Positions 21,206-28,148 of a stretch of DNA of 35,821 nt are shown piece after piece (the first letter of the stretch is position 1; every line of letters starts with the position of its first letter). The DNA is taken from NCBI GenBank assembly GCA_009783145.1, contig WRHR01000010.1, positions 1 through 35,821 of the forward strand. Direction: 5' to 3'. The notes below the pieces were generated by a model, which saw nothing but the letters and a program-made list of their open reading frames with translations, searched no databases and had not been told where the DNA came from. A program made the translations under genes and the position numbers. The DNA is from Alphaproteobacteria bacterium. Its GTDB lineage: Bacteria > Pseudomonadota > Alphaproteobacteria > Rs-D84.

Positions 21206-21276
21206 TTTGCGCTCCTTTTGCGTTGTTGCCCCAGTGGGGATTAGACATTTTCGCAACCTGAAATTTTCAGAATTGC

Positions 21277-21345
21277 GATTTACGATTTACGAATTACGAT
21301 TTGTTGGGAGTAAAATCGTAAATCGTACATCGTAATTCGTAAATT
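21277..21345. repeat. Heptamer-arm hairpin element H6 (ATTTACG units), behind rpoA
   Basis: Left arm of ATTTACG/AATTACG units, core TTGTTGGGAGTAAAATCG, and a right arm that reaches the rpoA stop codon (21344-21346). Same family as 5892-5946 (core TTGCCGGGAGTAAAATCG). Confidence 0.85.
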
Positions 21346-22372: not shown

Positions 22373-22420
22373 AAAATGGCTCCGTTGGTTTAGTTTATTA
22401 TTTTCACCATAAGGCACGCA

Positions 22421-22449
22421 ATTATAGGCACGAGCAAAGCAAAAGTCAA
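22421..22449 (-). promoter_or_regulatory. rpoA-rplQ promoter
   Basis: Minus strand: -35 TTGACT (22444-22449), 17-bp spacer, -10 TATAAT (22421-22426). A near-consensus promoter supplies rpoA-rplQ after its separation from the upstream ribosomal genes. Confidence 0.75.
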
Positions 22450-22465
22450 ATGTTTTGTAATGGCC

Positions 22466-22496
22466 TTGACAAACGCTATTGGTTTAGTACTATATG
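22466..22496 (+). promoter_or_regulatory. Likely promoter of the genes at 22526 and 23253
   Basis: -35 TTGACA (22466-22471) with -10-like ACTATA or TATATG at 17-19 bp. It lies back to back with the rpoA promoter in the 153-bp divergent gap. Confidence 0.5.
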
Positions 22497-22525
22497 CGGT
22501 GCAACCGGAATAAAAAAGACAAAAA

Positions 22526-23239
22526 ATGCCAAAAAATGGAAAATGGAGAAGTCCTCCTAATAAGAAAAAAGAAGAGAAAAGAATTGCCGCACAGATGCAG
22601 GCGGACGAATTAGCCCGCAATGAGGCAAGGCGATACTCTGTTCGGGAAGTCCGTACGGAAGAAAAAATCCTTAACGAAACCGAGCGGCCCGATGTTCAAG
22701 AAGCCGATGCAAACGGGTTGGCAGGCAACATTCCCTATTCGACTCATATCGTCGTTTCATACAATGGCGTGACTGATGCCGCCGGAAACGCAATCCACAT
22801 ATACAAGGGCCAGCCAATTGCCAAATGGGCGAATATAGCGGCAAATTTTGCGCGTTCCGCACCAATCCTTGCCGCTAATGCCAAACTGGTATTCAAACAG
22901 CACGACATATTCGACGCGCAAATACATATAGAAAATGTCAAGATAAAAACTGCCTGCAATTCGGGGCCGCGGCGCGTAGATTGGAATCATAAGCCGATAG
23001 AAAGAGATACCGTATCGACAGCGGATAGCGAAGACAGGTTTGTTTGGCTCAATATCAAAGCAACGATAAACGGAAAAGAAATACGCACCGGCTGGATATT
23101 CACCGACGCGTATTCGACGGCGATAGAGGCCGCATGCAACGCGCCGGCAACCGCCGCATACCGCCTGCACAGCGATACGGGCAACCTGGCGAAGCAACTC
23201 TTGTATGCATACAAAAGAGCCATCAGGAACGAGAAATAG
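22526..23239 (+). CDS. Unknown soluble protein inserted between rpsK and rpoA
   Basis: 237 residues, not recognised. The basic N-terminus (MPKNGKWRSPPNKKKEEKR) and Glu/Arg-rich helix to about residue 50 precede a compact domain (about 68-230) with alternating strands (STHIVVSYNGVTDAAGNAIH, VWLNIKATINGKEIRTGWIF). No signal peptide. The domain contains two cysteines. The ribosome site is weak. The next gene starts 13 bp after its stop, so they form a two-gene operon with a small membrane protein. Confidence 0.75.
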   Translation: MPKNGKWRSPPNKKKEEKRIAAQMQADELARNEARRYSVREVRTEEKILNETERPDVQEADANGLAGNIPYSTHIVVSYNGVTDAAGNAIHIYKGQPIAKWANIAANFARSAPILAANAKLVFKQHDIFDAQIHIENVKIKTACNSGPRRVDWNHKPIERDTVSTADSEDRFVWLNIKATINGKEIRTGWIFTDAYSTAIEAACNAPATAAYRLHSDTGNLAKQLLYAYKRAIRNEK

Positions 23240-23252
23240 AACGGAGGCAGAA

Positions 23253-23462
23253 ATGACCATTCGTCAGAAATATAACATATCACTGGGCGGAACTCTGGCT
23301 ACGCTGGGCATAAAGGCCGCGAACTTCACAGCATTATGGTGGGGCGGCGCATCATTGAAATATGTGTATCCGATATTTATCGCCAGTCACATAATGCTTG
23401 CCGGGTTCACCGCAGCAGCGCTGTTTTACAGAAGCAAACTAAAAAAACAAAAACAACAGTAA
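23253..23462 (+). CDS. Small membrane protein, unknown
   Basis: 69 residues, not recognised. The ATG at 23253 has a strong GGAGG site. Two hydrophobic segments (about 10-32 and 37-58), with a basic C-terminus KLKKQKQQ, suggest two membrane passes with the C-terminus in the cytoplasm. Second gene of a pair with 22526-23239. Confidence 0.75.
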   Translation: MTIRQKYNISLGGTLATLGIKAANFTALWWGGASLKYVYPIFIASHIMLAGFTAAALFYRSKLKKQKQQ

Positions 23463-23480
23463 TAAAAACCATCCATTTAA

Positions 23481-23508
23481 TAAAAAACCGCCGAACGGCG
23501 GATTTTTA
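23481..23508 (+). terminator. Terminator of the 22526-23462 operon
   Basis: 6-bp CCGCCG/CGGCGG stem (23488-23493 with 23496-23501) flanked by A and T runs. Confidence 0.85.
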
Positions 23509-23539
23509 TTAATCTAATTAATAAGTGGGAATTATATCC

Positions 23540-23569
23540 TTGACAACCATTTTCACTATTTAATATGAT
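23540..23569 (+). promoter_or_regulatory. Promoter of the tandem outer-membrane protein genes
   Basis: -35 TTGACA (23540-23545), 18-bp spacer, -10 TATGAT (23564-23569). It gives a leader of about 95 nt before the start codon at 23673. Confidence 0.6.
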
Positions 23570-23615
23570 TTCCGCATAGCTATTTCCAATAGCTAACAAC
23601 ACAAAGGGAATTTCC

Positions 23616-23648
23616 ATGAATTCTCGCATCGCGGGGATGCATCGGTAA
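23616..23648 (+). other. Possible leader peptide ORF upstream of the beta-barrel genes
   Basis: A ten-codon ORF (MNSRIAGMHR) preceded by AAAGGGA lies in the leader of the barrel gene. It overlaps a small hairpin GCATC-GCGGG-GATGC. It may affect translation or be chance. Confidence 0.3.
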
Positions 23649-23672
23649 ACCTTGAACAAAAAGGAAATGGAG

Positions 23673-24317
23673 ATGAAAAAACTCTTGTTAACATCCGCGA
23701 TTGTCCTGGCTGCGGGCGCCGCGAACGCGGCTGTCGCGCCGTATGCGTCGATAAAGGCGGGCTATACCAACAGCGACATAAACTTTTACTATGACGATGA
23801 CAAATTCGAGAGCGAAGGACTGGCGAATTTCAGCGGATTTACCGGCGCGATTGCCGGCGGCGCGGCATGGGATGCCAATTCCTTGATAACCGTTCGCGGC
23901 GAACTGGAATACGCGTACACCAATACTTCGGTCAATTCTTGGATGGATGACTTGGATGAGTGGAAAGATGTCCTGACCCACAACACCATCATGCTTAACG
24001 CATTCGCGGATTTCGGCGAAAAATCGTGGTCGGTGCGCCCGTATGTCGGCTTGGGCGCGGGCTTCGGCTTTGGCAATACATTCAAAATCATCCGGGACGG
24101 CGAGACATGGAAAAAGGAAGACATGGGAAGCGGATTCGCGTATGCGGGAATGATCGGCGCGGCATGGCATGCCACAGATCACCTGGCGATCGATCTGGGC
24201 TTTCAGTACAAGGTCATCGATATGGGCGAAGCGGGCGCAAAAGTGTACAGCTGGGGCCAGGATAGCAGTGACGTCGTAAGCAGAACCGTGACCTTGGGCG
24301 CGCGGTATACGTTTTAA
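23673..24317 (+). CDS. Outer-membrane beta-barrel protein, opacity/OmpA-like porin family, copy 1
   Basis: 214 residues. Signal peptide MKKLLLTSAI with cleavage after ANA (about residue 19). The mature chain alternates aromatic and polar strands (YASIKAGYTNSDI, ITVRGELEYAYT, WSVRPYVGLGAGFGFGN, LAIDLGFQYKV) and ends ARYTF, the terminal phenylalanine expected for assembly by Bam. This is the 8-stranded opacity-protein-like plan. The start chosen at 23673 has AAGGA about 9 bases upstream; an in-frame ATG lies two codons before. Followed 40 bp later by a paralogue. Confidence 0.88.
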   Translation: MKKLLLTSAIVLAAGAANAAVAPYASIKAGYTNSDINFYYDDDKFESEGLANFSGFTGAIAGGAAWDANSLITVRGELEYAYTNTSVNSWMDDLDEWKDVLTHNTIMLNAFADFGEKSWSVRPYVGLGAGFGFGNTFKIIRDGETWKKEDMGSGFAYAGMIGAAWHATDHLAIDLGFQYKVIDMGEAGAKVYSWGQDSSDVVSRTVTLGARYTF

Positions 24318-24357
24318 CATGAGTTAAACAAACAATAAAAAACAAAAAGGATTTCCT

Positions 24358-24972
24358 ATGAAGAAACTTTTCTTAACATCCGCGATGATTCTTGCGGTCG
24401 GCGCGGCGAATGCCGCCAACCCGTATGCATCGCTAAAGGCGGGCTACGCAAACAGCAGCTTAAAGTACGGCTATGAAGATTCGTTTTTCGACAGACACGG
24501 CAATTTCGACGGATTTACACTTGCCGCCGCCGGCGGCCTCGCATTCGCGGTCGACCCGGCGGTGACGCTGCGCGGCGAAGTGGAATACGCCTATACCGAT
24601 GTCAGCGCGAAACCTGAAAATTGGTGGGGGGACCCGAAACTATCCGTATCCGGCAATACCATCATGCTGAACGGCTATGCCGATTTCGGCTATGAGTCAT
24701 GGGCCGTAAAACCGTATGTAGGTTTCGGCGCGGGATTCGGATTCGGCAATAAATTTGAAATAAAATATAGCGGCAGCGGGCACAAAAACGACATGTGGGA
24801 CGGATTCGCCTATGCGGGAATGGTCGGCGCGTCATGGCAGGCCACAAACCACCTGGCGGTTGATTTGGAGCTGAAGTACAAGGTTCTTAACGGCGCCAAT
24901 TATGATTGGTGGTATGAACGGACGGACTTCATCACCAGGTCCGTCATGCTGGGCGCAAGGTATGCGTTCTAA
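24358..24972 (+). CDS. Outer-membrane beta-barrel protein, opacity/OmpA-like porin family, copy 2
   Basis: 204 residues, clear paralogue of the preceding gene: same signal peptide pattern (MKKLFLTSAM), same strands (PYASLKAGYANS, LRGEVEYAYTDV, KPYVGFGAGFGFGNKF, GFAYAGMVGASW) and a terminal ARYAF. Loops differ most, as expected for exposed surfaces. AAGGA upstream of the ATG at 24358. Probably cotranscribed with copy 1 and ended by the terminator at 25003. Confidence 0.88.
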   Translation: MKKLFLTSAMILAVGAANAANPYASLKAGYANSSLKYGYEDSFFDRHGNFDGFTLAAAGGLAFAVDPAVTLRGEVEYAYTDVSAKPENWWGDPKLSVSGNTIMLNGYADFGYESWAVKPYVGFGAGFGFGNKFEIKYSGSGHKNDMWDGFAYAGMVGASWQATNHLAVDLELKYKVLNGANYDWWYERTDFITRSVMLGARYAF

Positions 24973-24997
24973 AAAAACAAACGAATGTTAGTGCAAG

Positions 24998-25027
24998 AAA
25001 AACCGCGCCCTTGGGCGCGGTTTTTTG
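24998..25027. terminator. Terminator after the beta-barrel genes
   Basis: Perfect 8-bp CCGCGCCC/GGGCGCGG stem (25003-25010 with 25013-25020) with A and T runs on both sides. Confidence 0.9.
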
Positions 25028-25124
25028 CTGGATTGCCGCGCCCTGCGGGCTCGCAATGACAATTCGGTGTTTGTTTTTACTGTTTTTTGTCATTGCGAGG
25101 AGCGTAAGCGACGAAGCAATCCAG
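25028..25124. repeat. Dispersed palindromic repeat (CTGGATTGC...GCAATCCAG), copy 4
   Basis: Same ends and inner blocks as copies 1-3. Located between the terminator of the inserted genes and that of rpsK. Confidence 0.85.
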
Positions 25125-25128
25125 TAAT

Positions 25129-25151
25129 AAAAAGGGCGCAATTATGCGCCC
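25129..25151 (-). terminator. Terminator after rpsK
   Basis: 6-bp GGGCGC/GCGCCC stem (25134-25139 with 25146-25151) located just after the rpsK stop codon and followed on the minus strand by TTTTTATTA. It marks the new end of the main ribosomal operon. Confidence 0.75.
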
Positions 25152-25157
25152 TCAAAT

Positions 25158-27292: not shown

Positions 27293-27508
27293 TTATTTTT
27301 TCTTTCCGACTTTCTTGGCCGCGAATCCGGGCAAGCCGATTTTATGACCCATGCTGACGATCGCCCAAGTGATAACCGCCGCCAAGGCTCCCTGCACCAA
27401 GAAAATCGACAGGAATTCGCCCAAGACCCGGATCACGAACCACGCCGCCAAAAATATCAAAACTCCGACTATGATCTGTATGGCCAAGTTTTTGTTTTCT
27501 TTCGTCAT
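27293..27508 (-). CDS. Small membrane protein upstream of secY, unknown
   Basis: 71 residues, not recognised. Two hydrophobic helices (about 8-27 and 32-52) and a strongly basic C-terminus (AAKKVGKKK), so the C-terminus is probably cytoplasmic. AAGGAG lies 8 bp before the ATG at 27508. Its start overlaps the stop of the upstream gene (ATGA), and secY starts 3 bp after its own stop, so it appears fully integrated in the operon. Association with SecY is inference from context. Confidence 0.75.
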   Translation of the reverse strand: MTKENKNLAIQIIVGVLIFLAAWFVIRVLGEFLSIFLVQGALAAVITWAIVSMGHKIGLPGFAAKKVGKKK

Positions 27509-27765
27509 CCTACTCTCCTTTTGTTATTTGCTTCTTTTCCAAAAAACTTTTTTCTTTCTGTTCCCAACGAAACAGTTTCATCAAACCTTGCATCAACTTC
27601 TTCCCTCGTAATCACGCGTCCGCTGCTTAAAGGATCCACCCCATATGAAAAACCTTTGGTGCCGGCTATTTTACTTAGTTCTTCTGAGCTCGTATTACAT
27701 ATTTCCTCTATGCTCATTCCGGTTGTTTTTTCAATATACTTTTCAAATTTTGTCTTAGGAGCCAT
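27505..27765 (-). CDS. Small soluble protein in the spc operon, unknown
   Basis: 86 residues, not recognised. Basic and polar: MAPKTKFEKYIEKTTGMSIE, then a central helical part and a C-terminal basic segment. No membrane helix or signal. The ATG at 27765 has a purine-rich site. It ends in TGA overlapping the next gene's ATG by four bases, a sign of translational coupling. No toxin-antitoxin motif is evident. Confidence 0.65.
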   Translation of the reverse strand: MAPKTKFEKYIEKTTGMSIEEICNTSSEELSKIAGTKGFSYGVDPLSSGRVITREEVDARFDETVSLGTERKKFFGKEANNKRRVG

Positions 27766-27783
27766 ATTTCCAGCCTTTGATTT

Positions 27784-28110
27784 TTATTTACGTTTGCCGA
27801 CTTTTTCTATAATTTTCGAAACTGTAACAAATTCCCGCATATCTATCTTTTCATAACTTATCATCTCTTTTCTTTCTTTTTTCAGAATCTTTTCAATCTC
27901 TTTTTTAACAGTCGGGAAAAACAAATGCCTTAACGTTATATCGACGACCCAAAATCTCTGCGTTTCTAAAACAACCCCGTCTTTTGTTTTAAGTTTCGGT
28001 TTTCCCCTTGGTTGTATCGTATAACCTTTAAACTCGTATTCCTTCTTTTTCATACCGAATAACTTTACCGGCTTAATATCTCCTTCCGCAAGAAATGCAA
28101 ATACTGACAT
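27784..28110 (-). CDS. Small basic protein in the spc operon, unknown
   Basis: 108 residues, not recognised. Lys/Glu-rich with strand-like stretches (YEFKGYTIQPRGKPKL, QRFWVVDITLRHLFFP) and a basic C-terminus. AAAGGA precedes the ATG at 28110. First of three unknown genes between rplO and secY; 38 bp after the rplO stop. Confidence 0.65.
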   Translation of the reverse strand: MSVFAFLAEGDIKPVKLFGMKKKEYEFKGYTIQPRGKPKLKTKDGVVLETQRFWVVDITLRHLFFPTVKKEIEKILKKERKEMISYEKIDMREFVTVSKIIEKVGKRK

Positions 28111-28148
28111 TTTTTATCCTTTTATGTCCTCCCTCTACTTTCTCTCCA

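Follow-up and report, generated by a model that had tools for sequence, protein, structure and literature searches.

Textbooks explain the matching of RNA polymerase and ribosome output in part by a shared alpha operon. In Escherichia coli this operon runs rpsM-rpsK-rpsD-rpoA-rplQ under the control of S4, and the available part of PMC10931766 states that S4 repression does not extend to the rpoA cistron, which is said to have regulation of its own, and that a distant rpsD is an alphaproteobacterial trait. Among ribosomal protein leaders (r-leaders), the available text of Eckert and Weinberg 2020 (PMC7247131) describes S4 leaders covering rpsD-rpoA-rplQ and an L17 leader 5' of rplQ. Here we analyze a stretch of 35,821 nucleotides (nt), hereafter the window, which is contig C10 of a 947-kb alphaproteobacterial genome (24 contigs, 92% complete). 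In the window, rpoA (start 22372) and rpsK (end 25158), both on the minus strand, are separated by 2785 base pairs (bp). As read from sequence, the alpha operon is split at this junction in most of the family to which the genome belongs, a group of gut bacteria with tiny genomes, and what stays constant is a short conserved RNA element directly upstream of rpoA, the rpoA leader. The value of the finding lies in this combination of a split operon and a conserved rpoA leader RNA.

The genes are those of the E. coli alpha operon, in which rpoA is said to be regulated independently too, as far as the available part of PMC10931766 goes. Unlike in E. coli, a terminator and a promoter here part rpsK from rpoA, rpoA has a dedicated conserved leader, and rpsD does not lie between rpsK and rpoA. 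Like the r-leaders in the available text of PMC7247131, the element is a short covarying RNA directly 5' of a translation or transcription gene in one lineage, and the two properties by which r-leaders are recognized, a covariation-supported structure and a consistent position, here 5' of rpoA, were both found. It differs from the r-leaders of that text (compared with the text and not with the supplementary alignments) in having rpoA, and no ribosomal protein gene, directly 3' and in belonging to no Rfam family. It differs from the L17 r-leader, which lies 5' of rplQ, in its position 5' of rpoA, with rplQ having a separate candidate leader. A literature search, which did not cover supplementary files, found no description of an rpoA leader or of a split alpha operon in this family, and the conserved rpoA leader RNA is apparently undescribed so far.

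Relatives were taken as the best 80 of 480 confirmed loci from a scan of genome contigs with the rpoA protein. They include three Candidatus (Ca.) Enterousia records (L007, L038, and L059). The available part of PMC12306168 places Ca. Enterousia in o_Rs-D84, f_Rs-D84, and we infer that the window's family, f1, is GTDB Rs-D84 (Ca. Enterousia and relatives). Alignment-based distances were collected for the 57 loci, the window counted, that have rpsK and rpoA on the same strand. The rpsK-rpoA gap ranges from 50 to 9521 bp (median 1352) and exceeds 600 bp in 45 of these loci, so the insertion reported for the window in the initial annotation recurs among its relatives. Gaps of more than 600 bp are never seen at the junctions just upstream, secY-rpsM (0/55) and rpsM-rpsK (0/56); they occur at rpoA-rplQ in one of 79 loci and at rplO-secY in two of 52, the window being one of them. 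The rplE-rpsH pair exceeds 600 bp in one of 44 loci and, because it is never closer than 309 bp, its interval probably holds another gene. A whole-genome count, with the contiguous distance set by hand at a constant 850 and with six family and two order genomes left out for having the genes on different contigs, gave an excess of more than 300 bp over the contiguous arrangement in 32 of the 48 family genomes whose two genes share a contig. No such excess was seen in 13 genomes from other families of the order or in 20 from the class. All 33 same-contig outgroup genomes are near-contiguous, in agreement with the initial annotation, which took contiguity of rpsK and rpoA as the normal state, and the 19 outgroup junctions that were read directly have gaps of 27–126 bp. 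The junction varies across most of the family, and hence the window genome is not special. In two loci (L072 and L080), rpsK, rpsM, and secY are inverted relative to rpoA and lie about 3 kb downstream of it; the junction is therefore also a rearrangement breakpoint.

Most of these sequences are draft metagenome assemblies, and rpsK and rpoA lie on different contigs in six of 32 genomes of genus g10, which would leave room for an assembly or binning error at the junction. The same anatomy is nevertheless present in dozens of independent assemblies. Another species of the window's genus (locus L002; rpoA 92% identical) shares the window's rpoA promoter and leader, and its own insert carries in the same junction, in the same orientation, a homologue (38% identical) of the 237–amino acid (aa) gene of the window. 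A misjoin is for this reason extremely improbable.

The promoter and the terminator described in the initial annotation are both present: rpoA has a TTGACT-17-TATAAT promoter that faces away from the inserted genes, and rpsK is followed by a terminator hairpin. Counts of such sites in a 7-kb stretch are not above chance on their own (seven promoter-like sites versus 6.3 ± 2.5 in shuffled sequence; 14 terminator-like sites versus 11.7 ± 4.5), and their significance therefore rests on conservation. The promoter stands at the same place in 53 of the 64 family rows (loci, the window counted) that have both a leader and a measured gap, and a terminator is called in 47 of these 53; of the six without a called terminator, four (L007, L032, L035, and L047) show another long hairpin by eye. 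A measured gap is available for 87 rows, 68 from the family and 19 from the outgroup. Of these, 48 have both the promoter and a gap above 300 bp, and 33 have neither. Five have the promoter without a large gap (134–204 bp, terminator present), and a single row, L039, has a large gap without a promoter-like site; there the rpoA leader is immediately preceded by a transfer RNA (tRNA)-Gln gene. The calls of promoter and rpsK terminator coincide in 79 of the 87 rows (47 with both, 32 with neither). These counts exclude nine repeats identified by rpoA protein identity (L145–L147, L149, L150, and L152–L155); L029 was scored as promoter-bearing by hand from its sequence, and L011, which has no measured gap, as promoter-less since its contig ends there. 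None of the 19 outgroup rows has the leader core (at least four mismatches in 16) or a promoter score above 9/12 at a 17-nt spacer. The promoter and the terminator would seem, from sequence and conservation, to be in use.

The initial annotation was silent on the rpoA leader, which is the constant element of the junction. The 115 bases 5' of rpoA are nearly all variable among relatives except for the promoter, TTGACTTT-N-TATAAAAT, and for GGYGAAAATRATAAACTAARCC, which directly precedes the rpoA ribosome-binding site. At the center of the leader, a covarying stem encloses the 16-nt loop GAAAAURAUAAACUAA. The exact 16-nt core is found 5' of rpoA in 97 of 101 family sequences (nine being second copies of named loci); the four without it are three loci of genus g4 and a degenerate copy, L140. 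By eye, the core was not seen 5' of rpsM in 21 loci. A covariance model of the leader matches 163 of 183 family genomes, in 11 of 13 genera, once in 160 genomes and twice in three. In a draw from the class, searched with Infernal's stricter filters, it matches four of 385 genomes; these four are the draw's sole family members, and none of the 381 other Alphaproteobacteria has a match. Sixteen of the 20 family genomes without a match were checked: 15 have no assembled rpoA C-terminal domain, and the sixteenth, G526, has a 40-bit rpoA C-terminal match in a 169-aa frame that is probably a paralogue. The other four are three genomes of genus g4 (G004, G021, and G025), contiguous and without the core, and G018, which has a degenerate copy.

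A pattern search allowing up to three mismatches in 22 bases found matches in 48 of 60 family genomes, and the 16-nt loop is intact in every family match 5' of rpoA. Two family genomes have one extra match each elsewhere, and six of 40 non-family genomes have one match each, at three mismatches. No Rfam family falls on the leader in the window (E ≤ 5). Fourteen relatives (E ≤ 0.5) gave seven weak matches to microRNA or small RNA models, beside the leader or elsewhere, and none covers the leader, although one overlaps its edge by four bases in L148. At the same thresholds, the S4 operator model RF00140 (Alpha_RBS) has no match at the rpoA leader in the window or in the 14 relatives.

Structure was assessed on an alignment (A1) of 64 distinct 38-nt leader sequences. 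These had been picked for an exact loop, which makes the invariant columns partly a matter of construction; the three-mismatch search is the independent check. The three closing positions are paired in 64, 64, and 63 of the 64 sequences. Paired cells amount to 85.3%, compared to 77.9 ± 1.2 in shuffled alignments, and the covariation score is 0.407 versus 0.256, neither value being reached in any of 500 shuffles. All five stem pairs show two-sided changes, and every slid register is worse. Without guidance, RNAalifold also arrives at the three closing pairs and shows two-sided changes for each of them. The ribosome-binding site itself is drawn into the outer stem in L057 and L139, where its GGAG pairs with CUCC. 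A reading of the leader as a mini–open reading frame (ORF) was also considered, as some loops spell ATG ATA AAC TAA. Others, including that of the window, have ATA for ATG, and on inspection the mini-ORF was rejected because its start codon is not conserved.

The rpoA proteins were placed on a tree (111 different proteins, 92 from the family and 19 from the outgroup). Genus g4, which has no leader, branches first in the family, and the tree calls for two changes of the leader and six of the promoter. In the ten family rows with a leader and without a promoter, the gap measures 44–199 bp. Since relatives without promoter or insertion carry the leader, the leader probably predates both. The simplest reading of the tree is that the leader likely came first, followed by promoter and terminator, and then by the cargo.

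On balance, we think it probable that the alpha operon was broken up into units under separate control and that insertions were then tolerated at the junction. In this explanation, a sigma-70 promoter of its own would drive rpoA transcription, and the leader would act in translation. The invariant 16-nt loop would be bound by a protein, the likeliest candidate being an RNA-binding member of the machinery for translation or transcription, and the closing stem, which reaches the ribosome-binding site in some species, would couple protein binding to ribosome access. Such leader control could keep alpha synthesis in step once co-transcription was lost, and the four genes of the window would be passenger modules in the resulting neutral spacer, with promoter-like sites of their own and outside the control. 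Control specific to rpoA is plausible because, as the available part of PMC10931766 has it, the E. coli rpoA cistron escapes S4 repression. A stronger version of this explanation is tentative and, in our judgment, rather unlikely: that the leader is a new class of cis-regulatory RNA for alpha, near-universal in the family, in which a specific protein (alpha or a ribosomal protein) binds the loop and sets rpoA translation, and that it predated and enabled the break-up of an rpsK-rpoA linkage that is widely preserved elsewhere.

It is possible, though we doubt it, that the hairpin has no ligand and serves as a stabilizer of the 5' end of the messenger RNA (mRNA), or as a standby or enhancer site whose A-rich loop is read by the ribosome (e.g., by S1). 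The loop is A/U-rich and the predicted stem weak, and in the window the loop begins 15 nt past the −10 box, so that the hairpin would sit near the mRNA 5' end. Conservation of the loop, however, is base by base and includes its C, U, and G positions, and in relatives without the promoter the leader is found mid-operon, where it is not a 5'-end hairpin.

Several results weigh against the proposal of a split operon with a leader that controls rpoA. The further pair types in the stem alignment were matched by 17 of 500 shuffles; each of the two outer pairs fails in 23 of the 64 sequences, so that only the three closing pairs are near-universal; and related sequences can beat such shuffles without any structure. 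The fold of the window's leader is weak (−5.1 kcal/mol, z −0.72) and no better than that of shuffled sequences. Of eight leaders folded singly, two have z below −3, L057 (−3.8) and L060 (−3.9), and the fold energy of L060 owes much to an extra upstream hairpin. Not every species pairs the stem with its ribosome-binding site, as L057 and L139 do. The leader shows no mimicry of ribosomal RNA (rRNA), its best match to stretches of its own 16S and 23S being no better than that of shuffled queries; this comparison was made at the sequence level, and likeness to rRNA is not required of every r-leader. The rpoA tree was made by a quick method and has many unresolved forks, and the link between promoter and large gap comes down to few events (two well-supported pairs, five in all, median sign-test p 0.5).

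If the proposal of separately controlled units holds, the family would have severed the rpsK-rpoA link yet kept an RNA element before rpoA, a natural experiment that offers comparable lineages with the leader alone, with leader and promoter, and with leader, promoter, and inserted genes. It would also mean that reduced genomes can open an insertion-tolerant site in a gene cluster that is among the most strongly conserved in bacteria.

Genomic hotspots are familiar sites where genes turn over between conserved neighbors, with variable cargo and sometimes with mobile or defence-type genes. The rpsK-rpoA junction resembles them in its variable cargo, its fixed flanks, and the presence of some mobile or defence-type genes. 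It differs in its location within a gene cluster that ranks among the most conserved of bacteria and in showing no integrase match and no att-like repeat in the window. Clustering of the 121 ORFs found in the 57 gaps yielded one family of small exported proteins, present in 28 of the gaps and in 20 of these 28 on the strand opposite rpoA. The other gap ORFs are narrow families or singletons, and the cargo changes from species to species. The insert of L002 is 9.5 kb long and encodes a reverse transcriptase, an N6/N4 DNA methylase, a DUF559 protein, and a ParB-CE domain protein. Searches of the cargo against family libraries covered the four genes of the window and 12 of the 13 ORFs of L002, out of the 121.

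The changing cargo, the gene content of the L002 insert, and the inversion of rpsK relative to rpoA in L072 and L080 could also be explained if the junction were a hotspot at which one family of mobile elements integrates site-specifically by means of its own integrase. We consider this very improbable, given that the four genes of the window have no integrase or recombinase match (Pfam, PHROGs, and NCBIfam), that a repeat scan found no long direct repeat flanking the window's insert, that a common resident exported family is unlike interchangeable islands, and that, by eye, locus boundaries differ apart from terminator, promoter, and leader.

In the window itself, ORF calls and family matches bear out the four plus-strand genes, two of them outer-membrane barrels, that the initial annotation had placed between rpsK and rpoA (237, 69, 214, and 204 aa; Table 1). 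They can be read as two modules, the 237-aa and 69-aa genes and the tandem barrels. Each module has its own promoter-like site and terminator hairpin, and in module 1 the promoter-like site stands back to back with the rpoA promoter. G+C content is 49% in the insert and 52% in the window. The barrel genes score 50.9 and 39.3 bits with PF13505, above the Pfam gathering threshold of 28.7, and by inspection alone the start of the first is signal peptide–like. Barrel paralogues occur elsewhere in the genome, as a pair at C1:60009–61513 and singly on C5. The first barrel has no match in the genome of the congeneric species L002, and the two modules are for this reason probably of different histories. 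The 237-aa gene has no Pfam family, no PADLOC family at E ≤ 0.01, and no phage match, and in NCBIfam and PHROGs its best matches (E 0.072 and E 0.15, respectively) come nowhere near a cut-off. Its AlphaFold model (mean predicted local distance difference test score 75.7) matches no PDB fold at E ≤ 0.001 (best 0.43). The function of the cargo genes was set aside as a point of interest, the barrels having paralogues elsewhere and the relatives other cargo or none; the barrels are passengers, incidental cargo.

Table 1. Positions of the rpoA leader, the inserted genes, and associated features in the window
Feature	Position	Strand	Details
Candidate structured rplQ leader	21206..21287	-	35 of 69 distinct upstream stretches aligned; rplQ start codon 21205
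rpoA, RNA polymerase alpha subunit, 342 aa	21344..22372	-	Pfam and NCBIfam alpha-subunit model, 472 bits
rpoA leader element (model R1), 38 nt	22378..22415	-	Hairpin adjoining the ribosome-binding site; covariation and covariance model
Leader, Shine-Dalgarno GGAG	22380-22383		
Leader, closing stem	22406-22410 with 22385-22389		
Leader, loop	22390-22405		
rpoA promoter TTGACT-17-TATAAT	22421..22449	-	11/12 consensus bases
Divergent promoter-like site TTGACA-16-TACTAT, cargo module 1	22466..22493	+	Consensus match alone
Cargo gene 1, 237 aa, without known family	22526..23239	+	Homologue in the same junction of congeneric species L002
Cargo gene 2, 69 aa, hydrophobic	23253..23462	+	No confident family; holin-like match sub-threshold, E 0.062
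Bidirectional terminator-like hairpin at end of module 1	23488..23501	.	
Promoter-like site TTGACA-18-TATGAT, barrel module	23540..23569	+	Consensus match alone
Cargo gene 3, outer-membrane beta-barrel, 214 aa	23673..24317	+	OMP_b-brl, E 2.7e-13
Cargo gene 4, tandem barrel paralogue, 204 aa	24358..24972	+	OMP_b-brl, E 9.7e-10; 58% identical to gene 3
Terminator-like hairpin past the barrels	24998..25025	+	13-nt perfect inverted-repeat arms, then T run
Dispersed palindromic repeat, non-coding	25028..25124	.	Between barrels and rpsK
rpsK intrinsic terminator	25132..25153	-	5 nt past rpsK stop
rpsK, ribosomal protein S11, 127 aa	25158..25541	-	Ribosomal_S11 match

The hairpin at 24998–25025 has a loop of two, hence lies outside the terminator scan, and was found as an inverted repeat. 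The palindromic repeat beside it is about 97 bp long (CTGGATTGC...GCAATGACAA / TTGTCATTGCGAG...GCAATCCAG), apparently non-coding, and like a miniature inverted-repeat transposable element. One arm has ten copies in the genome (0–3 mismatches; reversed control, 0) and the second arm varies among copies; the nine further sites are on C1, C5, C6, C9, C16, and C18. The palindrome was considered as the agent of insertion and is not supported in that role; it lies 3' of the barrels in the window and 5' of their paralogues on C1.

The gene directly 3' of rpoA, rplQ, encodes the ribosomal protein L17, and a candidate L17 leader 5' of rplQ is known in Actino- and Proteobacteria from the available text of PMC7247131. 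The rpoA leader might accordingly be an autogenous L17 site controlling rpoA-rplQ; this is improbable. rplQ has its own candidate leader in the family, which makes L17 a less likely candidate than it seems at first, although support for that leader is less than for the rpoA leader. In L003, moreover, the rpoA leader is kept despite 4.66 kb and a terminator hairpin (by eye) between rpoA and rplQ. The rplQ leader comprises, by eye, two hairpins (TTCTG...CAGG, then AATCCC...GGGGC) directly 5' of the ribosome-binding site, of which the second is backed by RNAalifold at three closing pairs only, one with two-sided changes (alignment A3, 35 loci). Also by eye, the element is seen in genus g5 (L186) and is not clear in g9 (L185); at this position, a simpler hairpin occurs in some relatives at the order level. 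In the window, the rplQ leader has weak Rfam matches, none of them to a known ribosomal leader.

The S4 operator model RF00140 matches 5' of rpsM with 35.3 bits in the window (gathering threshold 38) and 44.7 bits in L006, and has no match at gathering in five other loci. The candidate match in the window shares positions with a promoter-like site and with the conserved start codons of rpsM, and part of its score derives from these codons. The rpsM promoter-like site is present in the window and, by eye, in several relatives.

Some further observations concern the neighboring gaps. In L003 (3735–8450), rpoA and rplQ are about 4.7 kb apart, and a 354-aa ORF between them is, by inspection, a candidate reverse transcriptase. 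A long hairpin with a conserved inner part of about CTYATGTAGGTYAACTACACTRCG was found, with one pattern, in 21 of 79 rpoA-rplQ gaps (for example, L006 11069, L002 11070, and L039 11068). By eye, it replaces the simple rpsK terminator in L007, L032, L035, and L047, and it is possibly a terminator or another leader. The rplO-secY gap of the window (27293–28148) is, at 862 bp, the largest among 52 loci and holds ORFs of 71 and 108 aa, both without a Pfam family. Elsewhere in the same genome (G000, C2:54723–56419), the 16S rRNA match covers 1697 bases, exceeding the 1533-position model, which suggests an insertion in the 16S gene.

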